A stretch of 39,898 bases of DNA from contig NZ_NFLU01000020.1 in NCBI RefSeq assembly GCF_002161085.1, positions 1 to 39,898 of the forward strand, written 5' to 3'. This DNA is from Flavonifractor sp. An112 (GTDB lineage: Bacteria; Bacillota; Clostridia; Oscillospirales; Oscillospiraceae). Numbering within the stretch: position 1 is the first letter of the stretch; each line of letters starts with the position of its first letter. A program made the translations under genes and the position numbers. The notes under the pieces are model-generated. The model was given only the letters and a program-made list of their open reading frames with translations, did not search any database and was not told where the DNA came from. Positions 854 through 12,346 of this stretch are shown here, one piece after another.

Positions 854-1259
854 AGGGGAAGGCGCGCTCTTTGCGGCTGTCCACCTCCAGCACATGGCGA
901 TGGCCCAGGAATACCGCCCGGTATCCGATCTCCTGATCCTCGCCGGCGGCAAAGTGGAACCACGCTGCCTCCTCCGGGAACTCGGAATGCCACCAGGTTT
1001 CAAACTCCTCAAAGCTCTCCACCTGGCCGTCCGCCCGCAGCTTCTCAAAGCTGCCGAAGTCTTCAATGGTACCTCGCTCCGCACGGAGCCATAGTTCCCA
1101 GCTTGTGTTCTCCGGGCCTGGCTCCAGCCGGTGGAGAAGGCGGAAGATCCGGTCGATGGCCGCATAGGATGTCTCGTCATAGGTGAAGGAGCAGTTGATG
1201 TTTCGGTATTCCACCCGACCCAGCCAGTTGATGTAGTGCTTGATCTCCGGCGCTTTCAT
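813..1259 (-). CDS. Conserved hypothetical accessory protein (148 aa)
   Basis: The start ATG at 1259 overlaps the stop of the upstream gene by 4 bp (ATGA), a sign of operon coupling. The protein is acidic and rich in aromatic residues (ELWLRAERG, FETWWHSEFPEE, AAWFHFAAGEDQEI). It has no signal peptide, membrane segment or catalytic motif that I recognise. It belongs to a leftward operon headed by a metallophosphoesterase. Its C-terminus may be shifted by a frame error (see the 47-codon frame at 710-853). Confidence 0.6.
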   Translation of the reverse strand: MKAPEIKHYINWLGRVEYRNINCSFTYDETSYAAIDRIFRLLHRLEPGPENTSWELWLRAERGTIEDFGSFEKLRADGQVESFEEFETWWHSEFPEEAAWFHFAAGEDQEIGYRAVFLGHRHVLEVDSRKERAFPYGADARNADCEVL

Positions 1260-2432: not shown

Positions 2433-2469
2433 ATCGACCGGCAGTCAATGCTCGTGACTTCCGGTTGAT
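2433..2469. promoter_or_regulatory. Imperfect 15-bp-arm palindrome, left copy
   Basis: Arms ATCGACCGGCAGTCA (2433-2447) and TGACTTCCGGTTGAT (2455-2469) match at 13 of 15 positions when reverse-complemented, with a 7-bp centre. The arms are near-identical in sequence to the perfect palindrome at 3408-3443 on the other side of the XRE pair. No T run follows, so it is not a plain terminator. It lies upstream of a possible leftward -10 box (TATATT, 2408-2413) for the metallophosphoesterase operon. Likely a protein-binding site; the binder is unknown. Confidence 0.6.
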
Positions 2470-2482
2470 TGCTTTCTCAGGT

Positions 2483-2860
2483 TCAGACGGTAAAATCAGA
2501 GTTATCTGGTTTACCGTATCTGCCTTGATGCTCTTTCAAGGAAGCTTTCAACGATTTTATAACATCCAAGAGAATCAGCATCTCATAGGTACTGCAATCC
2601 GAAAGGAGCAGGGAGATTTCTTCGCTGGCGCACCGTTCAGTGCTGGTGACTTGCTCCATCAAAAGCCGGTCGGGAGATACTCCCAAGGCATTGGTGATAA
2701 GCACAAAGGTGTCAAGGCTCATGCTCTTGATCCCGCTCTCTATGTAGCTGATGTAAGATGGCGTTTTATCTACCAGTTCAGAGAGCATCGCTTGCGAAAG
2801 GTGGTTGCGCTGGCGGACTTCACGGATGTGTTTTCCAATGACTTTGTAGTTCAGGCTCAT
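2483..2860 (-). CDS. XRE-family helix-turn-helix regulator (left member of divergent pair)
   Basis: The 125-residue protein has an N-terminal Cro/CI-type helix-turn-helix at about residues 7-66, with the canonical stretches LSQAMLSELVDKTPSYISYI and LDTFVLITNALGVSPD. The C-terminal part (SEEISLLLSDCSTYEMLILLDVIKSL) closely resembles the C-terminus of the divergent regulator at 3002, so the two are paralogues and may heterodimerise. Start at 2860 with a GGAGG site upstream. It is probably a repressor acting on the shared promoter region 2861-3001, similar in layout to a phage CI/Cro switch (inference). Confidence 0.88.
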   Translation of the reverse strand: MSLNYKVIGKHIREVRQRNHLSQAMLSELVDKTPSYISYIESGIKSMSLDTFVLITNALGVSPDRLLMEQVTSTERCASEEISLLLSDCSTYEMLILLDVIKSLKASLKEHQGRYGKPDNSDFTV

Positions 2861-3001: not shown

Positions 3002-3361
3002 ATGACGGAACATGATTTGACCGAGAGCCAGCTGATCGGCTCCCGTATTCGAGATGCGCGGATCAATCGCCGGATGAGCCAGGCCGATCTTGCTGCGAAG
3101 GCCAATATCTCGCTGCCGCATATCAGCAATATCGAAAAAGGCAAGACGAGCATGAAGTTGGAAACCTTTATCCGAATCATCGAAGCCCTGCAAGTGTCTG
3201 CTGATTCCCTTCTTCGGCCCGATGTGCCGGAGGTGAGAAGTCTATACCAGAGCGAGTTTGACGAGCTGCTGGCCGACTGCTCTCCCAAGGAGCTGGATTC
3301 CATCCTGAAGATTGTTCGTGAGTTGAAATCCACTATGGCCAGACGGGATGACAATACCTGA
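3002..3361 (+). CDS. XRE-family helix-turn-helix regulator (right member of divergent pair)
   Basis: This 119-residue protein has a Cro/CI-type helix-turn-helix at about residues 12-70 (MSQADLAAKANISLPHISNI, then METFIRII-like KLETFIRIIEALQVS). The C-terminal stretch FDELLADCSPKELDSILKIV parallels the LLSDCSTYEM stretch of the leftward paralogue. The start ATG 3002 follows a strong GAGGGGGG site. It lies between the shared operator region and its own terminator, and is the regulator nearest the recombinase operon. The target and inducer are not visible from sequence. Confidence 0.88.
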   Translation: MTEHDLTESQLIGSRIRDARINRRMSQADLAAKANISLPHISNIEKGKTSMKLETFIRIIEALQVSADSLLRPDVPEVRSLYQSEFDELLADCSPKELDSILKIVRELKSTMARRDDNT

Positions 3362-3367
3362 AAATTT

Positions 3368-3400
3368 GCGAGCTGGAATTGCCGGCTCGCTTCTTTTTTT
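3368..3400 (+). terminator. Rho-independent terminator after the right XRE gene
   Basis: GCGAGCTGG pairs with CCGGCTCGC (one G-T pair) around a short AATTG loop, followed by TTCTTTTTTT. It lies 6 bp after the XRE stop codon and separates the regulator from the recombinase operon. Confidence 0.85.
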
Positions 3401-3407
3401 CTCATCT

Positions 3408-3443
3408 ATCGACCAGAAGTCAAGGTGTTGACTTCTGGTCGAT
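3408..3443. promoter_or_regulatory. Perfect 16-bp-arm palindrome, right copy, next to the recombinase-operon promoter
   Basis: ATCGACCAGAAGTCAA (3408-3423) and TTGACTTCTGGTCGAT (3428-3443) are exact reverse complements around GGTG. A terminator already precedes it, so a second role is likely. A -10 box TATAAT lies at 3466-3471, which puts the -35 position directly at the edge of the palindrome. The related copy at 2433-2469 has the same orientation relative to the leftward operon. Candidate operator or recombinase/ParB-like binding site (inference). Confidence 0.7.
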
Positions 3444-3505: not shown

Positions 3506-4111
3506 ATGTCAGATCTGACCGTTCAAAATAGAGAGTCAGAGCAGGAGGTTATGCCCTCATTTGATTTCCTGCTGGAGAGGGAAACGGAACGAAACACCCT
3601 TTTAGCGGAACATCGTGCCTGGTTAAAGGAAATCAAGCGGGAACGCCCGCTTCCCAAAACACATTACCGTGTGGCGGTATACATCCGCTACTTCAACCAG
3701 ACCCGCTATGAGGACTATCTCTCAGCTCATAAAAAGCAATTTCTTGATACACTGGCTCTCTGCCCAAACTGGAAGTTTGTCGGTTTCTATGTGGACGAGG
3801 GCAGCACTGCGCCCAATATGGAGAACGCCCCGGAGTGGTCAAGGCTCCTTCAAGACTGCTACGAGGAAAAGGTCGATCTGATCGTTACCCAGAAAGCAAG
3901 CAATATCTCGAAGAAGCTCTCCGAGCTTTCTTTCTGTACGCGCCTTTTGGCAGCACTCTCAAAGCCAGTGGGCGTTTACTTCGTTTCGGAGGATATTTAT
4001 ACGCTGGCTTCCTATTACCAAGAGGATCTACACGACCCCTACTTTTTGCCAGATCCCGGTTGGAAGATACTTCCTGATGACAAACCCCGGAGGGAAATGC
4101 TGCATGATTGA
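3506..4111 (+). CDS. Serine-recombinase-like protein lacking catalytic residues
   Basis: The 201-residue protein starts at ATG 3506 after GGGGGAG; an earlier in-frame ATG at 3470 has no such site. Residues about 54-165 align with the resolvase catalytic domain of the next gene: RVAVYIRYFNQ against RIAVYARVSTD, PNWKFVGFYVDEG against PNWTLVKIYADEG, and SKPVGVYFVSEDI against PSPVGVFFESECI. The nucleophilic Ser is replaced by Phe63, and the two Arg of the SRFAR motif become Asn133 and Lys136. It also lacks the DNA-binding recombinase domain. It therefore cannot catalyse strand exchange by the known mechanism. It may be a regulatory or structural partner of the active recombinase, whose start it overlaps by 8 bp. 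Confidence 0.75.
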   Translation: MSDLTVQNRESEQEVMPSFDFLLERETERNTLLAEHRAWLKEIKRERPLPKTHYRVAVYIRYFNQTRYEDYLSAHKKQFLDTLALCPNWKFVGFYVDEGSTAPNMENAPEWSRLLQDCYEEKVDLIVTQKASNISKKLSELSFCTRLLAALSKPVGVYFVSEDIYTLASYYQEDLHDPYFLPDPGWKILPDDKPRREMLHD

Positions 4112-5984
4112 CAAGTCCACACGCAAACAGCTTGCGGAACGGAAAGAACGGGTCCGCCGGCGTATCAACACAAAAGTTGACCCGGAGAACTATGAATTCA
4201 TTCCGGCCAAAAAGCCCATCGACTATTACGACAATGATATAAGGCAGCGGATCGCCGTGTATGCCCGTGTCTCCACAGACAATGTCCAGCAGACTTCCTC
4301 CTATGAGCTGCAAAAGAAATACTATGAAGATTTTGTTGTGCATCATCCCAACTGGACATTGGTCAAAATCTATGCGGATGAGGGCATCAGCGGGACTTCT
4401 CTGGCTCATCGGGACGAGTTCAACAGCATGATCGCCGATTGCCGTAGCGGGAAAATCGATATGATCATTACCAAAAGCGTGTCTCGCTTTGCCCGGAATG
4501 TGGTGGACTGTATCAGCATGGTGCGAATGCTTGCGGAGCTGCCCAGTCCTGTCGGGGTGTTCTTTGAGAGCGAATGTATCTTCTCCCTCAAAGACGATTC
4601 CCAGATGGCGCTTTCGTTTCAGGCCACCATGGCTCAGGAGGAGTCTCACATCCGCAGCCGGAGCATGGAAACCTCCTTGCGGATGCGGCTGGACGGAGGT
4701 CTGCCATTGACGCCCAAACTGCTGGGGTATTCTCACGACGCAGATGGAAACCTGGTCGTCAACCCGGATGAAGCCCCCACGGTAAAACTCATCTTCTATA
4801 TGTATCTGTACGGATATTCCACCTCCGACATTGCGGCGGCGCTCACCGAGCTGGGCCGAAAAACTTATCTGGGGAATGTCAAGTGGACATCCAACTCCAT
4901 TGTCCAGGTCCTTCGCAATGAGCGGCATTGCGGGGATGTACTGACCCGGAAGACCTTCACCCCCAACTATCTGAACCACAAGGCCAGAAAAAATCGGGGG
5001 GACAGACCCCAGAGCCTTTACCGGAACCACCACGAGGGCATCGTTTCCAGAGATGATTTCATTGCGGTTCAGCATCTTCTGAACAACTCCAAGTATGGCA
5101 ACCGTTCCATCCTCCCGGAGCTGCGGGTGATCGACAGCGGCCTGCTCAGGGGGTTCGTGACCATCAATCCCCGCTGGGCTGGATTTAAGCCGGCGGATTA
5201 TTACCAAGCGTCCGCCAGTATCCATCCACCCGATGAGCAGCAGGCGGATGCATCCCTGCCCTCGAGCATCACATTGGTTCCGGGAGATTTTGATATGAGA
5301 GGCTTTGAAATCGCCCGCAGTGAATTCTTTGATAATTATCACCGTCCCTATGTACTGTTTCAAGATAAGAGGATCAAGTTCAGCACCACATGTGTTCGGT
5401 CTTTTGGGAAAGACAACCATGTGGAGCTGCTGGTCAACCCTGTGGAGATGAAGTTCGCCGTCCGTACAGCGGCGAAAAGCAGCCGCAACGCAGTCGTGTT
5501 TTCCAAGCTGTCAGACGGAAAGTATCAGCCCAGGGATATCGCCGGTGCGGCCTATGTAGAAACGCTTTTTCAGTTATTCGGCTGGAGTCCGGATTTAAAA
5601 TACCGGATCGCCGGAGCGCTGTTTCAAACCGAAACTGAATCTGCGTATATTTTTGATGTCAATGATGCGGAAGCGTTTATTAAATCGTACCTGCTTTCCG
5701 GTTCAAAAAGCACGGAACAGGCAAAGGAGCCTGTACAGCCCCTTTCTGTCTCCGGCAAACGGGTGCGGGCAGTCCCGGAGGAGTGGATCGGCTCTTTTGG
5801 CAAGCAATATTACCTCCACCAACAGTCTTTCCCGCCCGTCTGCGATCAGAGTGAGGAAGACTGGAAAATTCGCATGGAGGGCCAGTTGTATGAAACCGGA
5901 CAGAAACTCCGCGTGACAGGATTTGACGTGCTGCGTGACTATATCTGTCAGGAACTCGGTCAGCGCGGGAAGGAGGAATCCTAA
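4104..5984 (+). CDS. Large serine recombinase with an extra C-terminal domain
   Basis: The 626-residue protein starts at ATG 4104 with GGAGGG upstream; the alternative ATG at 4077 lies deeper inside the preceding gene. The N-terminal resolvase domain (about 48-190) has Arg55 and nucleophile Ser57 in YARVSTD, the DEGISGTS motif near 92, SRFARN near 127-132 and the EESHIRSRS helix. A recombinase DNA-binding domain (about 205-330) follows, with YLGNVKWTSNSIVQVLRNER. Residues about 394-626 form an extension not typical of transposon serine recombinases; a domain in it recurs in the next two genes. I see no Cys zinc ribbon of the usual large recombinase type. Expected to cut and rejoin DNA for integration, excision or inversion; its sites are unknown. 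Confidence 0.88.
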   Translation: MIDKSTRKQLAERKERVRRRINTKVDPENYEFIPAKKPIDYYDNDIRQRIAVYARVSTDNVQQTSSYELQKKYYEDFVVHHPNWTLVKIYADEGISGTSLAHRDEFNSMIADCRSGKIDMIITKSVSRFARNVVDCISMVRMLAELPSPVGVFFESECIFSLKDDSQMALSFQATMAQEESHIRSRSMETSLRMRLDGGLPLTPKLLGYSHDADGNLVVNPDEAPTVKLIFYMYLYGYSTSDIAAALTELGRKTYLGNVKWTSNSIVQVLRNERHCGDVLTRKTFTPNYLNHKARKNRGDRPQSLYRNHHEGIVSRDDFIAVQHLLNNSKYGNRSILPELRVIDSGLLRGFVTINPRWAGFKPADYYQASASIHPPDEQQADASLPSSITLVPGDFDMRGFEIARSEFFDNYHRPYVLFQDKRIKFSTTCVRSFGKDNHVELLVNPVEMKFAVRTAAKSSRNAVVFSKLSDGKYQPRDIAGAAYVETLFQLFGWSPDLKYRIAGALFQTETESAYIFDVNDAEAFIKSYLLSGSKSTEQAKEPVQPLSVSGKRVRAVPEEWIGSFGKQYYLHQQSFPPVCDQSEEDWKIRMEGQLYETGQKLRVTGFDVLRDYICQELGQRGKEES

Positions 5985-6791
5985 ATGTTTGAAGAAAGTC
6001 GGGAAAATACCGGCAGCGTAATCGCCGGAATGCTTCGTTCCCTGGAGGACGGGCATTTGGATATTGTTCCGTCTGCTGAATTAGAAAAAGCGGAACCGGC
6101 AGCTTCTCCCGCAAACAGCAGTAGTGATGAGGTTCTGGAGATGGCCGGTGACTTTAACTACGATGGCTACCAGGTGGTACGCCGTGAGTTCTTCGCCCAT
6201 ATTAATGAGCCGTCTGTAACTTTCAACAATTACAAATTTTATGTAAATACCGCCTGCCTGAACCGCTTCCCACAAGTTGATTATGTGCAGGTACTGGTCA
6301 ATCAGGAGAGCAGGATCTTGGCGATCCGTCCCTGTCGGGCGGAAGATCGGGATGCCTGCGCCTGGTGCACCAACGGCTCCGGCAGACGCAAACCGAAACA
6401 GATCACCTGCAAGATTTTTTTCGCCAAAGTGTTTTCACTGATGGGCTGGAATCTGGACTATCGATATAAGCTCCTCGGGCGGATAATCCATGCCAGGGAT
6501 GAGTGGCTCATCGCATTTGATCTCACAGCGACCGAAGTGTATCAGCGGGTGCAAAAAGACGGCCAGAAGCCCAAGTCTTCTCGAACTCCCGTGTTTCCGG
6601 AGGGCTGGAAGACGCAGTTTGGACTCCCGTTCCGGGAACACCAGAAATCTATGCAGGTAGACATTTTTGAAGGATATGCTGTATATGGGTTGCGCGATAA
6701 CATCGCTCCTGCTGCATCAGAGCAGTCAGACGAGGCTGCCTCTGATACTGGTAGTAAGTCCGTTTTGGGAGGACAAGGACATGAATCATGA
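5985..6791 (+). CDS. Stand-alone homologue of the recombinase C-terminal extension
   Basis: The 268-residue protein starts directly at the preceding stop (TAAATG) with GGAAGGAGG upstream. Residues about 50-185 align with residues 394-535 of the recombinase: GYQVVRREFF against GFEIARSEFF, YVQVLVNQE against HVELLVNPV, FSLMGWNLDYRYKLLGR against FQLFGWSPDLKYRIAGA, and IAFDLTATEVY against YIFDVNDAEAF. A later stretch, FPEGWKTQFGLPFREHQKS, matches VPEEWIGSFGKQYYLHQQS. So it carries the whole extension without the catalytic and DNA-binding parts. A partner or decoy subunit is likely; no catalytic motif is seen. Confidence 0.75.
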   Translation: MFEESRENTGSVIAGMLRSLEDGHLDIVPSAELEKAEPAASPANSSSDEVLEMAGDFNYDGYQVVRREFFAHINEPSVTFNNYKFYVNTACLNRFPQVDYVQVLVNQESRILAIRPCRAEDRDACAWCTNGSGRRKPKQITCKIFFAKVFSLMGWNLDYRYKLLGRIIHARDEWLIAFDLTATEVYQRVQKDGQKPKSSRTPVFPEGWKTQFGLPFREHQKSMQVDIFEGYAVYGLRDNIAPAASEQSDEAASDTGSKSVLGGQGHES

Positions 6792-7179
6792 AAATCAATT
6801 GCAGGCTTACTTAACGCTGGACCCTGCGCGAAACCGGATTCGAATCCACCGGCAAACGATTCGTCTCTTGAAGAATCCTGCGTATGTGCAATTCCTGGTA
6901 AACCCTGAAGAACTGTATATCGCCGTTCTCGGATCGGACAAACCTATTTCAGGCGGGACCGCAAACAAGGTTCGGATGTCAAGTACATCCCAGCAGTCTA
7001 TAGAATTCTATAGTACGATCCTTATCAAAAACTTTTCCGAACTGCTGGGTGGCTTTGACCTGAGATTTAATTACCAGCTGACCGGTGAGATCGATCAAGT
7101 CAACCGGGTCGCATATTTTTCCCTCAAAACCGTCAAACAGCTGGAACGCAGGAGGCTACATGACAGAGAAAGCATTTAG
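6781..7179 (+). CDS. Minimal stand-alone copy of the recombinase-extension domain
   Basis: The 132-residue protein starts at ATG 6781 and overlaps the preceding gene by 11 bp. It consists of little more than the shared domain: IRLLKNPAYVQFLVNPEELYIAV and FSELLGGFDLRFNYQLTGEI, ending VAYFSLKTVKQLE. This is the third copy of the domain within 3.1 kb. The copies are too diverged to be a recent duplication. No catalytic residues, membrane segment or known fold name can be given. It also overlaps the next gene by 20 bp, in keeping with one transcript. Confidence 0.7.
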   Translation: MNHENQLQAYLTLDPARNRIRIHRQTIRLLKNPAYVQFLVNPEELYIAVLGSDKPISGGTANKVRMSSTSQQSIEFYSTILIKNFSELLGGFDLRFNYQLTGEIDQVNRVAYFSLKTVKQLERRRLHDRESI

Positions 7180-8113
7180 GCAGCTTAACATCGATCCGGA
7201 ATTCAAAAACTTGATTCGTCCACTTCGCCGGGAGGAATACCGGCAGCTGGAGCTGAATCTGGTCGTGGAAGGATGCCGGGAAGATATCATCGCATGGAAT
7301 GATACCATCATCGACGGTCATAATCGCTATGAAATATGCAATAAAATGCGCATTCCTTATGGAGTCAAGGAGCTGGATTTTCCAAGCAGAGATGCTGCCA
7401 TCGCCTGGATCTGTGCGAACCAACTCGGACGACGCAACATCTCAGAAGAAACCAGGAAATATCTGATTGGGAAACAATATGAAGTGGAAAAGAAAGTACA
7501 GCGAAATAGGAATGGCTATAATCAGTACCGTCCGAACCCCAACATTGCTGTGGGGAGAGGCCGCCCAATAGATGAAGAGAGCGGCCGGCGAACAGCAGCC
7601 CGGCTGGGAAGGAAGTATCATGTGTCCGGCGCAACCGTACAGAAATATGCGAAATACAGTGCAGCATTAGATACCATTGAACAAAATGCTCCTGAGCTTG
7701 TTCCGCACATTCTTTCCGGGGCATATAAGATTTCTTTCGAAAATATCGTTGCTCTATCAGAAATGGAACCCGAAGAATTGAAAGCACTTAGTAAAAAAAT
7801 CGGAAAAAATCCCTATGCTTTCGCTCGTTACAGTGAATCGAGACGATGCCTTTATTCCGATGCTTCTGCCAAGCCCGGCACAGCGGCGGCAGAGCAGCCG
7901 GCAATCAAGACGATGCCCGCCTATGACCCGGATGCGGAAGTTGCTGGACTTACTCTTACGATCCCCTCCTGGATGAGCTCCATCGACCGGACAAAGTCCA
8001 TGGCACATTTGGAAGCGATCTCACCTGCTGCCAGACAAAACCTCTTGGCGGCGTTGACTGAATTAGAAGGAAAAATCCAGGAAATGCTCAATGCAATTGA
8101 GGGGGAATCCTAA
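7160..8113 (+). CDS. ParB-like nuclease-fold protein with helix-turn-helix
   Basis: The 317-residue protein starts at ATG 7160, five bases after a GGAGG; a longer frame from 7085 lacks a ribosome site. The N-terminal part (about 10-110) is ParB/Srx-like, with PLRREEYRQLELNLVVEG, the DGHNRYEIC motif in place of the ParB GxRRxxA box, and the family-typical WICANQLGRRNISEETRKYL. A helix-turn-helix-like segment follows (LGRKYHVSGATVQKYAKY), then a helical C-terminus. ParB-fold proteins bind specific DNA and often CTP; whether this one does is unknown. No ParA is present, so ordinary partition is doubtful. A regulatory or recombination-accessory role is possible. Confidence 0.8.
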   Translation: MTEKAFRQLNIDPEFKNLIRPLRREEYRQLELNLVVEGCREDIIAWNDTIIDGHNRYEICNKMRIPYGVKELDFPSRDAAIAWICANQLGRRNISEETRKYLIGKQYEVEKKVQRNRNGYNQYRPNPNIAVGRGRPIDEESGRRTAARLGRKYHVSGATVQKYAKYSAALDTIEQNAPELVPHILSGAYKISFENIVALSEMEPEELKALSKKIGKNPYAFARYSESRRCLYSDASAKPGTAAAEQPAIKTMPAYDPDAEVAGLTLTIPSWMSSIDRTKSMAHLEAISPAARQNLLAALTELEGKIQEMLNAIEGES

Positions 8114-8982
8114 TGGAAGATTATAGTATGTTTGTTCCCAATGTTCACTTCGAACAGATTCCCATCAAGAACCTCGTATCCAATCAGGAGTACCAGAGGA
8201 ATATTTCCGAACAGCATGTGCTGAATGCTGCGGCACACTTTGATCTGTATCAGATCAACCCTGTGAAGGTGAGCCGTCGAAATGGGGTCAACTATGTCTT
8301 CAATGGCCAGCACACGGTGGAGATCGTCGCCCTGGCCTCTGGCTCTCGTGAAACGCCAGTCTGGTGCATGATATACGATGATCTGAACTACGAGCACGAG
8401 GCAGATATCTTCGCCAACCAGATGAAGTTTGTCAAACCGCTCCGTCCCTATGAAGTGTTTATGGCAAATGTGGAAGCCGGGAATCAGGAACAGCTTATGA
8501 TCAAAGATCTGGTAGAGTCTTATTCTCTTTCCATTGGCCAGGTCAGAAACTATGGCGTTGTCTGTGCTGTCTCCACGCTCGAAAATATATATGAGCGGTT
8601 TGGTTACCACGTACTTGATCGAACACTCAGACTCTGCGTAGGCACCTGGGAGGGCGATATGAATTCGCTGTCTGCCAATATGCTCAACGGAATCGCCAGA
8701 TTGGTCTACACGTTCGGCGATGCCCTGAAAGATGAGACCTTTAAGGAAAAAGTGGGGGAAATGTCGGTCAAGTTGCTTTCGAGAACAGCCAAGGAACGAC
8801 GCCCCGGTTCTATGGGCTATGCTGAGGCGATGCTTCTGGCCTATAACCGCAAATGCAAATATCCGCTCAAATGGACCAGGCTCTACGAGAAGAATGTGGG
8901 GAACAATGAAGGACTGGACATTGATACGGATATGGACGAGGATGAGGGCGGGGACTCTTTTGAGGGAGTCGCCAAAGAATAA
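8113..8982 (+). CDS. Second ParB-like protein (DUF6551-like)
   Basis: The 289-residue protein starts at an ATG that shares one base with the preceding stop (TAATG). The N-terminal domain has IPIKNLVSNQEYQRNIS, a common ParB-fold opening, and VFNGQHTVEIVAL in place of the DGHNR box of its neighbour. It is followed by a helical domain (SYSLSIGQVRNYGVV) and an acidic tail rich in Asp and Glu. From memory it resembles proteins annotated DUF6551. As last gene of the operon it ends at a hairpin at 8984-9017. It may pair with the first ParB-like protein; no catalytic activity can be shown from sequence. Confidence 0.72.
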   Translation: MEDYSMFVPNVHFEQIPIKNLVSNQEYQRNISEQHVLNAAAHFDLYQINPVKVSRRNGVNYVFNGQHTVEIVALASGSRETPVWCMIYDDLNYEHEADIFANQMKFVKPLRPYEVFMANVEAGNQEQLMIKDLVESYSLSIGQVRNYGVVCAVSTLENIYERFGYHVLDRTLRLCVGTWEGDMNSLSANMLNGIARLVYTFGDALKDETFKEKVGEMSVKLLSRTAKERRPGSMGYAEAMLLAYNRKCKYPLKWTRLYEKNVGNNEGLDIDTDMDEDEGGDSFEGVAKE

Positions 8983-9025: not shown

Positions 9026-10282
9026 TCATGGAAGGGAAAAGGCCGGGCGCATATACTCTATCGCTCCTCGGCTGAGACCATACTGCCCGGCCAACTGTTC
9101 CCAGTGTCCGGATACTGTTTTGCAGACCTCCTCTGCAGCCTGTTCCGCTTCCTGCGGGGCAAGGCCGAAATAATCGGCTACTTCCAGAGCCAGTTCCAAG
9201 TCAATGGTGTTATCATACTCACTCACATTGAGGGAAAGCCGGTCCCCCGAGGGGACTGGGTTCACATCATAGAGAGGGGCCAGCCGCCAGCCGGTGGGTG
9301 TCAGAAGAAAACCATGGTTGCGCAGGTGGTCGTCAGTATTAGATACCGCCATGCTGAACACGATCCACTTCCACAGCTCGGCCAGATCCTGCCGGGGTGA
9401 TGCCCCGTTGGCCCGGATGAACGCCGCCAGATCCAGATAGCTGCTTCCGTCCGCTGCAGAGGCTTCATCGATCTTGCCCAGCAGGGTCATGGCGGAGGCG
9501 AAGTGGATGCGGCGGCTGCCATTTCGGTCAAATCGCTTGACGAGAAAGGTGCTGCCGGTCTTGGAGAATGTCTCCAATTTGGATTCCGGAACATCCAGCC
9601 CACAGAGCCGTGCCAGGTCATGGACGACCTTCTCCCACGCGCCACTGTTATATTCATCATGCTTGGAGGGGAACTTGGCGATCCACAAGGCGCCATCTGT
9701 GGCCTGCACCGTAGCTTTGGGTCTTGCACCGCCCAAGGAGGAGCCAGGGGCCAGAAGCTCACGCAGCCATTTTTCATTCAGGCCGCTCTCATCGTTCTCG
9801 AAAGCGATAGAGGCGTTTTCCAGCGTCCGAAGGTTTACCCATGGAGGCGTCGCAAACGCTTTATCGTTCGAAAGAAATTCGCCCCCTTCCTCCAAGCTGA
9901 ACCGCAGCGCACCCATACGGGATTCATCGTAGACCCCCAACAGGAAGTCGCTCTCGGTGAGCTTACGGGGCTTGCGGTCCTCTTTGCGGGCGTCGATGGC
10001 CTCCTTGCGCTTCATCAGCAGACGCCCCCAGCGATCCGGACAGGAGTCGGAAAACAGGCCAAAGAGCTGCTTGTTCAGCGGCACATACTACCGCCCGCGG
10101 TAAAGAGCCAGATCCGGGTCCAGAGAGAAGGAACTCTCGGCGGATGACAGCCAGGCTGGATCATACTCAAAGGAAAAGGTTTCCTGTCCACGGACGAAGC
10201 CGCAGCGCAGCCGCCCCAGCAGAGTGGGTGCCTCTCCACGCCAATTTTCATATACATAGATGGTCTTTTCGTCCTGCGCCAT
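9026..10282 (-). pseudogene. hipA: HipA-type toxin kinase interrupted by an in-frame amber codon
   Basis: Read through, this would be a 418-residue HipA serine/threonine kinase. The N-terminal 64 residues (10088-10282, starting MAQDEKTIYVYENWRGE) carry the first HipA subdomain strands. TAG at 10088-10090 then stops translation, and the same frame continues with YVPLNKQLFGLFSDSCPDRW, the normal HipA continuation. The kinase core is intact: GGARPKA loop, FLVKRFDR, SNTDDHLRNHGFLL with the catalytic Asp, and LYDVNPVP with the metal-binding Asp. A GTG at 10082-10084 could restart translation of 352 residues, but its context is poor. HipA enzymes phosphorylate aminoacyl-tRNA synthetases and cause dormancy. 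It lies 3 bp after hipB. Most likely inactivated by a Gln-to-stop change; a split two-protein form is less likely. Confidence 0.75.
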
Positions 10283-10285
10283 GGG

Positions 10286-10606
10286 CTACTCTCCTTTCTT
10301 GGGTGCCCGCCGTCTGGTGGGCAGCGCCAGATCTTGTAGCTTCCTGCCGAATTCATCATCTTTTGCAATAAGCAGCAGGTCGCTGTCCATATTGTTTAAT
10401 GCGTGCAGCACAGCGGCATAGGAGCCGATGGATACCGTAGGGGTGCCTTTCTCAATGGATATCAGAGTGGCTCGGCTGATCCCGGCACGCTCTGCTACCA
10501 ATTCCAGGCTCAACTTCCTGCGCAGGCGGGCCAGGCGGATCTGCTCACCCATCTGTGCCAGGATCTCCCGTGTTTGCGGCATGATGACCGCAGCTTTTTT
10601 TGCCAT
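10286..10606 (-). CDS. hipB: HipB-like antitoxin and autorepressor (XRE family)
   Basis: The 106-residue DNA-binding protein starts at ATG 10606 with AGGAGG 9 bp upstream; an in-frame TTG at 10612 is possible but less well placed. The helix-turn-helix spans about residues 17-75 (LARLRRKLSLELVAERAGIS, then TLISIEKGTPTVSIGSYAAV). In hipBA systems HipB binds the operon promoter and neutralises HipA. The hipA start lies only 3 bp downstream, as usual. Since hipA is broken, hipB may now act only as an autorepressor. Confidence 0.85.
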   Translation of the reverse strand: MAKKAAVIMPQTREILAQMGEQIRLARLRRKLSLELVAERAGISRATLISIEKGTPTVSIGSYAAVLHALNNMDSDLLLIAKDDEFGRKLQDLALPTRRRAPKKGE

Positions 10607-10626
10607 GCACAATCGCCTCCTAACAT

Positions 10627-10675: not shown

Positions 10676-10842
10676 TTAACTTTCTTTTTCCAGGCGTTCT
10701 TCGATAAGGTACCCTCCTCCGAAGATAATGTCCAGTCTCCCGTCGGGATACACCTTCACACACTCAATCATTTGGTGGACGATGGTATCGTCGTACTCCA
10801 TCTTTTTGGATGCTCGGTCGGCGATGATCTGCTGTATGCAGA
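10676..10842 (-). pseudogene. C-terminal remnant of a site-specific recombinase
   Basis: The minus strand encodes about 55 residues ending at TAA 10676-10678, including QQIIADRASKKMEYDDTIV, HQMIECVKVYPDGRLDIIFG and GGYLIEERLEKES. The pattern VHQMIECVKV-PDGRLDIIFGGGY is typical of the C-terminus of serine recombinases from Clostridial elements. Homology stops near 10842, where an HsdS-like fragment begins on the other strand. No start and no catalytic domain remain. Confidence 0.6.
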
Positions 10843-10858
10843 AGAAGCGAAATTACTG

Positions 10859-11062
10859 GCTGCAGGAACTACTATGCAGCGAATTAGCAGAACTAAACTC
10901 GGTACGCTCGGATTGCCTAAGCCTCCATTATCGACACAAGACAAAATCGTGTCCTACCTAAACGAAGTAATTAAGAAGATCGACATTTGTATCGAGAATA
11001 AGCTGCGTCTGTCTGAATTATTACAGGAAAGCCGAACCTCTATAATATGTTCAGCTATATCC
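10859..11062 (+). pseudogene. hsdS: HsdS remnant (type I restriction specificity subunit, C-terminal end)
   Basis: In the plus strand about 68 residues match the end of an HsdS target-recognition and spacer-helix region: AAGTTMQRISRTKLGTLGLP, KPPLSTQDKIVSYLNEVIKK, IDICIENKLRLSELLQESRT. Intact HsdS is 380-450 residues and pairs with HsdM and HsdR, neither of which is present. Homology ends at about 11062 and the frame continues without similarity to 11230. It is a non-functional fragment beside a recombinase remnant. Confidence 0.65.
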
Positions 11063-11677
11063 GTTTTTAGACATAAAAATTGCGCCCTCCTTATTCTCAT
11101 CTCTTATGATGTTGAGGTCATTATGCTGGAAATCGACCTGTTTATGGCTGAATCAATATCAAAAAAGCCTGAAACGCTCCCCGTGTCTCTGATACGATCA
11201 GCTGTATACGGGGAACATATTTGCCCATAAAGCCTCAGAATCCCAGCCCGCTTTTCACAGCTGCCAAGTGCTGAGGTATTTTATAAGGCATATTCACTGC
11301 TTATTTGTCAAGGTGCAGGCTTTAGTGATACAATTTTCGCCTTTTTAGCAATGCATTGCGGGCAGCCCATACAGAAGACACCACAAAAAAGCGGCATCAC
11401 AAAGAGCTGCCAATAGCTTTGATGTAATGGTCACCTCAGGCCGGCGAGGGCGTTCCTTTGTTTTTATTATAGCTGCTTTATACACGATGTAAAGCGACAC
11501 CTATTCTCCCGGTGTCAACATCTGGACATCGGATTATAATGCGTCATAAAAAAGGTATTTATTCCAAAAAATTTGTTAAAACCGCACAAATTAGGCAGGG
11601 AGAAAGAGTATCAAAAGGAATTAAGTGGAATAATAATGTGACTGTCGCTCGCTATTAAGTTTTCTTGATCTCACACT
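11063..11677. other. Gene-poor stretch with a minus-strand promoter
   Basis: No convincing gene is seen in these 615 bp. A minus-strand promoter is present: -35 TTTACA (11488-11493), 16-bp spacer, -10 TATAAT (11466-11471). An inverted repeat GGTGTC/GACACC lies just upstream of it, and an AGGTGACC ribosome-like site about 40 bp downstream is followed by ATT, not ATG. A weak hairpin (TCCCCGT at about 11179, ACGGGGA at about 11210) follows the HsdS fragment. Probably decayed element DNA. Confidence 0.4.
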
Positions 11678-12346
11678 TGAACTGCCCCAAGTTGTGTGGA
11701 CAGTACAAAAAAGAGCCCCTGGCAGGAAATATTAAACTTTAGGCGGAGCGGCGTCTCCCCAGTCTTTAACTGGATGCGCTCATGATTGTAGAAGTAAATA
11801 TAACGGTCAATCATTTCGTTTGCTTCAGCAAAGGTCCACGATGCTGTTGTCATAGAGGTCTCGGATCATGGATAGGTACAGTACGCCCTGCCTGGTGTGG
11901 ATGTAGGAGATGTCCGTGCCCCATCTGCTGCCATTTCCTGCGGCGGCGGATTTCAGACAGCAAATCGTACTTCTGCATGATCCGCAGTACAGTCTTGGGG
12001 TCGCGGTAAATCTTTTGACTTTTCAGCCACCTCCACATCCTTCGGTATCCGTATGTACAAAAGCAACGTTCACGTTGCTGAGCAATCAGTTCCGCAAGGG
12101 CTGCATCCTTCTCCGGACTGCCAAGGCGATGGACAAAAGCATAGTAGCCGCTTCTGGATACTCCAAAGAATTTGCACATGACTGCCACGGGATACTCTGT
12201 TTTGTGACGATAGATGATATGATATTTTACCGTCGACCTCACTTCCTTCCTGTGAAGCGCAGAAAATCCCGCAGCAACTGATTCTCCATGCCAAGCCGTT
12301 GGATCTCATAGGCCTGCTCTACCACAATGTCTTTGGGTAGCTTCAA
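11678..12346 (-). mobile_element. IS3-family (IS150-like) remnant with internal deletions
   Basis: A probable terminal repeat TGAACTGCCCCAAGTTGTGT-GGACA lies at 11678-11702. OrfA survives only as its C-terminus in one frame (IVVEQAYEIQRLGMENQLLR, ending at 12241). OrfB follows with the HTH_21-type start (IIYRHKTEYPVAVMCKFFGV, SRSGYYAFVHR, TYGYRRMWRWLKSQ). It then shows a deletion with frame change at RRKWQQMG, a short rve-domain piece (TDISYIHTRQGVLYLSMIRD, LYDNSIV) and a second deletion of about 100 residues. It ends with the C-terminal FAEANEMIDRYIYFYNHERI-QLKTGETPL. The catalytic DDE core is mostly missing, so it cannot transpose by itself. Confidence 0.8.
11850..12242 (-). pseudogene. IS3-family transposase OrfB, frameshifted fragment
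   Basis: This 130-codon frame holds the N-terminal helix-turn-helix part of OrfB up to KYDLLSEIRRRRKWQQMG; from there it reads in the wrong frame because of a deletion. The correct frame resumes as GTDISYIHTRQG on the same strand. The end of the protein (FYNHERIQLKTGETPLRLKF) sits in the frame at 11671-11853 after a second deletion. The first catalytic Asp survives in TDISYIH, but the remaining acidic residues are lost. Confidence 0.75.

Follow-up and report, generated by a model that had tools for sequence, protein, structure and literature searches.

A conserved module of a serine recombinase, extension-domain proteins and ParB-type proteins in mobile elements of gut Clostridia and their phages

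Genes for a serine recombinase with a C-terminal extension (G2), for two stand-alone versions of that extension (EXT; G3 and G4) and for two ParB-type proteins (G5 and G6) make up a module of several genes that is conserved among mobile elements. In the 39,898-nucleotide stretch of Flavonifractor sp. An112 DNA that was analysed (the window), a sixth gene, G1, precedes them, and a preliminary description had proposed that the six encode a DNA rearrangement or element-maintenance machine; the notion of an element module held, but its unit is not the full set of six. Our tentative explanation, which we regard as plausible rather than probable, is that these genes would form an accessory module of integrating elements, situated beside a pair of HTH regulators and acting on the element's own DNA.

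RESULTS

Organization and conservation of the operon

As had been described, the six genes are all on the plus strand and each overlaps or abuts its neighbour (Table 1); of 38 ORFs chosen from all those of the window and compared with Pfam, none matched a ParA, relaxase or replication family. HipAB is a neighbour of the operon in the window.

Table 1. Features of the operon and of its upstream region (window coordinates)
Feature	Coordinates	Strand	Basis
S2, degenerate second palindrome copy, 16 + 5 + 16 nt	2433..2469	.	family-matrix score 24.8
HTH_3 regulator, divergent partner	2483..2860	-	Pfam HTH_3 1.2e-13
HTH_3 regulator directly 5' of operon	3002..3361	+	Pfam HTH_3 1.5e-13
Terminator-like hairpin and T-run 3' of HTH gene	3368..3390	+	consensus scan
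S1, perfect palindrome, 16-bp arms, 4-bp core	3408..3443	.	conserved across family
G1, catalytic-domain-only serine recombinase without catalytic serine, optional	3506..4111	+	Pfam, alignment
G2, serine recombinase, catalytic residues intact, PF07508, C-terminal EXT	4104..5984	+	Pfam, alignment
G3, stand-alone EXT protein	5985..6791	+	profile comparison
G4, short stand-alone EXT protein	6781..7179	+	profile comparison
G5, ParB N-domain and helical region of ParB DNA-binding type	7160..8113	+	AlphaFold2 and structure search
G6, DUF6551/ParB-CTPase-fold protein	8113..8982	+	Pfam, PHROG

The preliminary description proposed a search for co-occurrence of the six families in the same order. For G2–G6 such an order was found in 155 of 189 fetched loci (picked by G6 or G3, some contigs being fetched twice), where these genes are consecutive and on one strand; gaps of at most 30 nt separate 160 of 161 G2–G3, 164 of 166 G3–G4, 174 of 175 G4–G5 and 187 of 187 G5–G6 neighbour pairs. 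It does not extend to G1, an optional component that immediately precedes G2 in 64 of the 189 loci, and only in part to G5 and G6. A systematic draw of 147 genomes yielded EXT proteins in eight: the full operon is present in five (in four of them as near-identical copies) and split in another, while two show G2–G4 only, G5–G6 being absent or displaced in three of the eight. In one of the two genomes with G2–G4 only (G029), G3 is interrupted by in-frame stops. Throughout this draw, G2-G3-G4 forms the constant core. Wherever dS could be computed (against loci L161, L156 and L158), dN/dS across the operon was 0.03–0.20, with dS near saturation for L161, saturated for L166 and L052, and G4 compared with L156 only; the value for G1 was 0.05 against L161, at a dS saturated or nearly so.

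Carriers of the module

G2–G6 occur in order in three records of Candidatus Heliusvirales gut phages (Candidatus Heliusviridae), in all of which they are annotated 'hypothetical protein'. No function for these genes was found in PMC9226167, on Heliusviridae, the main text of which contains no occurrence of 'recombinase', 'integrase' or 'ParB'; nor was a published description of the operon's composition found among the titles and abstract starts listed from open-licence PMC literature. Further carriers are ICE-like contexts near conjugation genes and an element (G177) with three tyrosine recombinases and DUF6262. The module crosses at least two kinds of mobile element, and probably three. Its carriers, which include temperate phages, thus belong to more than one element type and have different integrases, LSR pairs being present in G165, G168 and G180. 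Complete elements are carried by Anaerocolumna and Coprococcus comes isolates. By eye, a restriction-modification-like gene was also seen in the G177 element. When plasmids were searched with G2, one record was matched with at least 80% query coverage, the rest of the 269 records being partial matches.

Recombinases G1 and G2

Both proteins match the Pfam Resolvase family (1.4e-7 for G1 and 1.2e-23 for G2), and G2 also matches Recombinase PF07508 (6e-22). Alignment bears out the view that G1 is catalytically dead and G2 active-looking: equivalents of R8, S10, R68 and R71 are present in all 160 G2 sequences, whereas among 73 short catalytic-domain proteins (13 of which do not adjoin a G2) S10 is found in 2, R68 in 10 and R71 in 12. 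An R[YF]FNQT motif is shared by 56 of the 60 short copies that do adjoin a G2.

Like the large serine integrases of the phiC31/Bxb1/TP901 type, G2 is a mobile-element gene product with a catalytic domain and PF07508. It differs from them in having EXT (approximately residues 380–560) in place of a zinc ribbon, none of which was detected in 160 sequences: after residue 330, two or more CxxC motifs are found in 0 of 160 G2 and a single one in 1 of 160, whereas at least one is present in 190 of 190 other LSRs. The zinc-ribbon/coiled-coil region is thought to govern direction in serine integrases. A further difference is that the four G2 carriers whose surroundings were read (G168, G177, G180 and, in part, G165) have integrases of their own, because of which G2 is probably not the integrase of the element. 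The closest NCBIfam relatives of G2 are the SCC recombinases CcrA/CcrB (3.3e-22 for CcrB), which likewise involve recombinase genes in a row; the module departs from them in its dead, catalytic-domain-only partner G1 and in its EXT and ParB-type proteins. G2 was rejected as a CcrB equivalog, since it scores 78.8 bits against an NCBIfam cut-off of 900.

EXT and ParB-type proteins

G3 and G4 had been taken for free-standing versions of the G2 extension, and profile–profile comparison agrees (E = 6.6e-40 for the extension with G3, 2.8e-15 with G4, and 7e-14 for G3 with G4). No Pfam family was matched above its cut-off by G3, G4 or G5, no NCBIfam or PHROG family by G3, and no Pfam, NCBIfam or PHROG model was found for EXT. 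EXT was compared with the MraZ/AbrB-like fold (fold or profile match), and the structure search with the EXT fold gave no clear match.

That there are two different ParB-type proteins was likewise upheld. G5 has a ParB-N fold according to its AlphaFold2 prediction and a structure search, and G6 matches DUF6551 (1.5e-30); the PHROG 'ParB-like' family is matched by both (5.3e-14 for G6, 2.6e-4 for G5). Pfam ParB was matched by 0 of 65 G5 members at E = 0.01. Against solved structures, the best hits of the G5 profile were Rad50 chains at E = 0.6, and the G6 profile gave none up to E = 1. An NGQHT motif is conserved in 68 of 69 G6 proteins, and of the canonical ParB nucleotide motifs, box-2-like and box-3-like forms are present in 37 and 39 of 69 G5 proteins. 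G5-like proteins are also found alone. For phage proteins of the DUF6551 type with a ParB fold, NTP binding has been measured, according to PMC12704722.

Regulator pair and palindromes

The pair of divergent genes directly upstream of the operon, described earlier as regulators, does encode two HTH_3 proteins. Of 78 distinct loci for which sufficient upstream DNA was available, 50 have both genes and 59 have an HTH gene adjoining S1. S1 is a new feature, a conserved 36-bp palindrome upstream of G1/G2. With a scoring matrix built from 130 loci, it was detected close to the operon in 111 of these same loci. A separate scan of viral sequences for the exact pattern, made independently of the matrix, gave 20 matching stretches, of which 13 adjoin operon genes and 7 lie away from them, 3 of the 7 near recombinase genes without EXT. 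Among ten elements or regions, eight have one site scoring at least 20, and the window and G035 have two; at a threshold of 11, matrix hits away from the operon occur at close to the background rate (204 in 2.48 Mb versus 61 in 0.84 Mb of shuffled sequence).

A weaker copy, S2, lies about 1 kb upstream of S1 in some loci, so that the two flank the HTH pair. Because 119 of 390 shuffled windows match at a threshold of 10, S2 was counted only at scores of at least 18; of 78 distinct loci, 20 have such a site at a distance of 0.9–1.12 kb upstream of where the operon starts, and three of these are near-identical window-type copies.

The sequence of S1 tracks that of G5 beyond the other proteins (partial r = 0.28–0.30, P = 0.002, by a permutation that ignores shared ancestry), and within G5 the signal comes from residues 94–135, outside the HTH region. 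S1 may be an RNA terminator or attenuator, because a T-run follows it in 69 of 84 sites and its G.T mismatches outnumber A.C ones (74 versus 33). Taken together, S2 sites show poor pairing and are not followed by a run typical of a terminator for the minus-strand HTH gene. As for the hairpin between the plus-strand HTH gene and S1, the shuffled region yields 1.1 such sites. S1 is intact in integrated copies.

DISCUSSION

A tentative model

Under the accessory-module explanation, G2, G3 and G4, with G1 where present, would join via EXT into a single recombinase complex. This complex would be brought to the DNA of the element itself by G5, which would load at S1 (and S2), perhaps together with G6 acting as a nucleotide-switched clamp. 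The reaction would more likely involve an excised, circular or replicating form than integration itself, because the carriers read have their own integrases and S1 is intact when the element is integrated; dimer resolution, or licensing or stabilization of the excised circle, could be examples. The explanation is weakened by the two of eight systematically found genomes that have G2–G4 without detectable G5–G6. Also against it are the terminator-like character of S1, the position of the covariation signal outside the HTH region of G5, the presence of canonical ParB nucleotide motifs in only about half of the G5 proteins, the 45 of 89 loci in which no LSR pair was found within 6 kb of G6, and the structure search with EXT, which gave no clear match. 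The EXT and ParB-type proteins may, as earlier proposed, set site choice or direction, and the HTH pair, to judge by its position, may control the operon.

Several known systems share parts of this arrangement. The stability modules of plasmids and transposons that combine resolvase/res with partition functions also have a recombinase gene, a palindromic site and ParB-type proteins, but the multi-gene EXT set is particular to the present operon. ParABS and the orphan ParB clamps KorB and BisD have in common with the module the ParB N-domain fold seen in G5. The module differs from ParABS in that no ParA is found among the 38 scanned window proteins and its ParB-type genes sit with a recombinase; canonical parS is shorter than the S1 palindrome. 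G6 resembles ParB clamps through DUF6551, a family for which NTP binding is reported in PMC12704722.

A bolder reading, which we consider rather unlikely, is that of a new multi-subunit class of serine recombinases, in which EXT and the dead partner would replace the zinc-ribbon/coiled-coil and ParB clamps would license synapsis, these nucleotide-switched clamps loading at the long palindrome that flanks the lysogeny switch. If true, rearrangement or resolution would be coupled to the lysogeny decision by a device common to phages, ICEs and transposons.

Alternative explanations

The module could instead control the element's own integrase, as an RDF-like or synapsis-modulating complex that acts on the neighbouring LSR pair or trio and switches it between integration and excision. 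Of 89 loci with sufficient DNA, 44 have two convergent LSRs at most 6 kb from G6; where a convergent LSR exists (85 loci), the nearest is less than 300 bp away in 54. In an Anaerocolumna prophage, moreover, the LSR pair sits at the end opposite to the operon, and circularization would bring the two face to face. We nevertheless hold this to be unlikely: in the other 45 of 89 loci there is no such pair within 6 kb, the G177/G178 element has tyrosine recombinases instead, and G2 retains all catalytic residues. The last point also bears on a mainly transcriptional role, with G5/G6 as KorB- or BisD-like clamps on S1/S2 regulating both divergent operons, S1 as an attenuator and recombination as secondary. 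This role is unlikely in our estimation, as it leaves unexplained both the catalytic residues conserved throughout G2 and the EXT paralogues. That G2 is the primary integrase or excisionase of the element might be suggested by the position of the operon at the element edge, where a comEC-type gene starts 280 bp past G6 in G168 and an interrupted pilus-type ATPase gene lies 477 bp past it in G177; yet both elements carry other integrases and S1 is not disrupted by integration, which makes this improbable.

The placement of S2 upstream of the operon raises the question of an invertible or excisable regulator cassette, in which G2 would recombine S1 with S2 and flip or remove the HTH pair, and compared with the window, G035 and G071 indeed have the 4-bp core of S1 in inverted orientation. 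Such core inversion could also arise when replication slips at a palindrome. When pairs were compared by eye, however, the cores of S1 and S2 mismatched and their spacing could differ, and the HTH segment is collinear with that of the window in the aligned near-identical copies (G035, G071/L155, L050, L156–L159). Recombination between S1 and S2 was judged unlikely, and the cassette as a whole is very improbable. Much doubt also attaches to a role for the module in defence or superinfection exclusion: the distribution of the module among mobile elements, HipAB beside the operon and the restriction-modification-like gene of G177 noted by eye would be in keeping with it, but no PADLOC family was matched below E = 0.01 by any of the six proteins.

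Significance

The same module is found repeatedly among gut Clostridia and their phages, and its recombinase, derived from an LSR, lacks the domain to which control of direction is ascribed. If its role were regulation only, it would still be a control layer of widespread gut phages for which no description was found in open-licence PMC literature. If its ParB proteins license recombination, ParB-type switches would have a new use, and the module might serve as a controllable recombination tool.

Composition and linkage of the operon

All six genes that the preliminary description had assigned to one operon are present in the window, which is a complete contig of its assembly. An IS21 IstB fragment lies at the window start, a phage-integrase-family gene is also found, and the right part carries chromosomal-looking genes, e.g. 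for fatty-acid synthesis. A HipA-like gene and an HTH gene (9026–10612), common to window-type elements, lie directly 3' of the operon. Phosphoesterase-like genes recur on the minus strand beyond the divergent HTH pair in many loci, e.g. 1603–2178 in the window (clusters of 37, 18 and 17 loci, named by eye; the window's own gene was named by Pfam).

Coordinates of the operon genes, upstream features and comEC-related segments (window positions unless a locus is named)
Feature	Position	Strand	Description
S2	2433–2469		weaker copy of S1
HTH_3 gene	2483–2860	-	divergent partner of 3002–3361
HTH_3 gene	3002–3361	+	divergent partner of 2483–2860
S1	3408–3443		palindrome upstream of G1/G2
G1	3506–4111		serine recombinase, catalytic domain only
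G2	4104–5984		serine recombinase with PF07508 and long C-terminal part
G3	5985–6791		no known family
G4	6781–7179		no known family
G5	7160–8113		ParB-like
G6	8113–8982		DUF6551
comEC-related, prophages of G168 and G165	L315:11798–14065, L318:17911–18159, L328:12774–14414

The description of G1 as catalytically dead and of G2 as active-looking is borne out by an alignment of 160 G2 proteins, 73 short catalytic-domain proteins and 190 other large serine recombinases (LSRs): equivalents of R8, S10, R68 and R71 are retained in 160/160 G2, and S10 is retained in 2, R68 in 10 and R71 in 12 of the 73 short proteins. At the position of the catalytic serine, 56 of the 60 short proteins directly adjoining a G2 carry R[YF]FNQT, which marks G1 as a conserved pseudo-enzyme; its dN/dS was 0.19 against both L156 and L158, and 0.05 against L161, where dS was close to saturation. 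Two CxxC motifs after residue 330 were found in 0/160 G2 and one in 1/160, whereas 190/190 other LSRs have at least one; the zinc ribbon has thus been lost from G2.

Loci were collected by G6 alignment (the best 80 of 95 viral and the best 80 of 183 genome matches) and by G3 alignment (31 viral, 25 of them new loci that mostly belong to contigs the set already contained); adding the window and three phage records brought the total to 189 gene-called loci. In this set, ascertained through G6 or G3, G2-G3-G4-G5-G6 are consecutive on one strand in 155/189 loci, and many of the other 34 end at contig or locus edges. Neighbours are separated by at most 30 nt in 160/161 (G2-G3), 164/166 (G3-G4), 174/175 (G4-G5) and 187/187 (G5-G6) cases, and G1 is immediately 5' of G2 in 64/189 loci. 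Because of the ascertainment, 147 genomes drawn systematically from the order, the window's own among them, were added; G3 was found in 8, G6 in 8 and G5 in 13. In five of the G3-positive genomes the operon is complete, contiguous and preceded by G1 (four are near-identical window-type copies), G085 has G5-G6 displaced by ~5 kb, past two LSRs, and in G029 and G099 only G2-G4 were detected, the G3 of G029 having in-frame stops. G6 occurs without G3 in G078 (broken) and G082 (part of G5 present), and G5-like proteins occur without the rest of the operon in G030, G032 and G103, with weaker matches elsewhere. The genes are thus strongly though not absolutely linked, most tightly in the core G2-G3-G4. 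One viral contig has a second G6-like gene outside its operon (L051:11965–12768).

A palindrome upstream of the operon

The best inverted repeat upstream of G1/G2 had a mean score of 11.0 (108 distinct regions) versus 6.2 in shuffles; 51% of regions and none of the shuffles scored at least 12. This palindrome, S1, has the half-site consensus ~ATAAACCAnARGTMAA (71 distinct sites) and was found near the operon in 111/130 loci, with a matrix built from the same loci. Of 78 distinct loci with enough DNA, 22 have an S2 scoring at least 18, and in 20 of these the copy is 0.9–1.12 kb upstream of the operon start; the window's S2 lies past the HTH pair. Shuffled background gave 14 matches scoring at least 17 in 3.1 Mb. 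When viral contigs were searched independently for two exact patterns, 13 of the 20 matching stretches adjoined operon genes.

In pairwise-distance tests, S1 covaried with G5: partial r was 0.275 for 69 loci, 0.301 for 50 and 0.294 for 42, each time at the lowest attainable P, 0.002. The values for G2 were 0.09–0.10 (P = 0.02–0.06) and for G6 0.08–0.13 (P = 0.03–0.11); neither HTH protein gave a signal. The S1-G5 covariation is a lead, not proof, since it maps to G5 residues 94–135 and not to the HTH.

Carriers and integrases

G2-G6 occur in three Ca. Heliusvirales records, annotated 'hypothetical protein'; two of these genomes have structural and replication genes. Among 39 other operon genomes, a phage portal gene (PF04860) lies at most 40 kb away on the same contig in six (G155, G165, G168, G169, G175 and G180), and a T4SS coupling protein or relaxase within ~45 kb in eight (G148, G151, G157, G159, G162, G166, G171 and G184), a distance that alone is no proof of one element. 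G035 and G071, members of different families, share the window-type block at 97.8% identity over 20.1 kb. Isolates of Coprococcus comes and Blautia luti (G177/G178) share an element of 19.57 kb (L296:7624 to L297:7194; G177:C49:27624–47194), identical between them but for one difference. It contains the operon, three tyrosine recombinases and DUF6262 and interrupts a T2SSE-type ATPase gene; a large restriction-modification-like gene was recognised in it by eye. Prophages in Anaerocolumna MB42-C2 (G168) and R. torques ATCC 27756 (G165) appear to interrupt comEC: the part adjoining each has a Pfam competence domain, the complementary small C-terminal piece in G168 (L318) was recognised by eye only, having no Pfam match, and the G165 interruption was read from one flank. 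A convergent LSR pair lies at most 6 kb from G6 in 44/89 loci with enough DNA. Across carriers the integrase type is variable and the operon constant.

In L034/L035 (G071, C3), three LSR-like genes adjoin the window-type operon, the middle one (301 aa) being without a catalytic domain by eye. Compared with G071, the window copy is missing ~2.35 kb on the left (window 855–858) and this trio on the right (10836–12338); despite its intact operon it may therefore be immobile. Two related genomes (G173:C3:68226–94340 and G174:C16:35955–58210) seem to carry distinct elements at one common chromosomal location, sharing only 3.9 kb (99.7% identity) that includes the operon end.

Possible roles of the site and of a proposed complex

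Judged from its sequence, S1 looks like a terminator, with a T-run 3' of it in 69/84 sites and mismatches in 223/1280 pairs (G.T 74 versus A.C 33). The likeness is weaker for S2 (116/336 pairs, G.T 28 versus A.C 21), which is followed by a T-run in 8/21 cases and preceded by an A-run, as for a terminator of the minus-strand HTH gene, in 1/21. S1 can be both a DNA site and a terminator. Its 4-bp core (window 3424–3427) is inverted, GGTG to CACC, in G071 and G035 (L155, L032), otherwise near-identical elements; replication slippage could be the source. Inversion between S1 and S2 is unlikely: the compared pairs disagree in core and in spacing, and near-identical copies are collinear.

The observation in the preliminary description is real, and this composition was not found in print among the open-licence PMC papers searched; its broad reading as a rearrangement or element-maintenance machine is reasonable but unproven. 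Conservatively, the products would form an accessory recombinase complex, with ParB-type proteins as its loaders. A role of this complex as the primary integrase is improbable: the four carriers examined (G165, G168, G177 and G180) have other integrases, integrated copies keep S1 intact, and 8/10 elements or regions scanned have one site scoring at least 20. For such a single site per element, dimer resolution or a control site fits better than inversion or excision.
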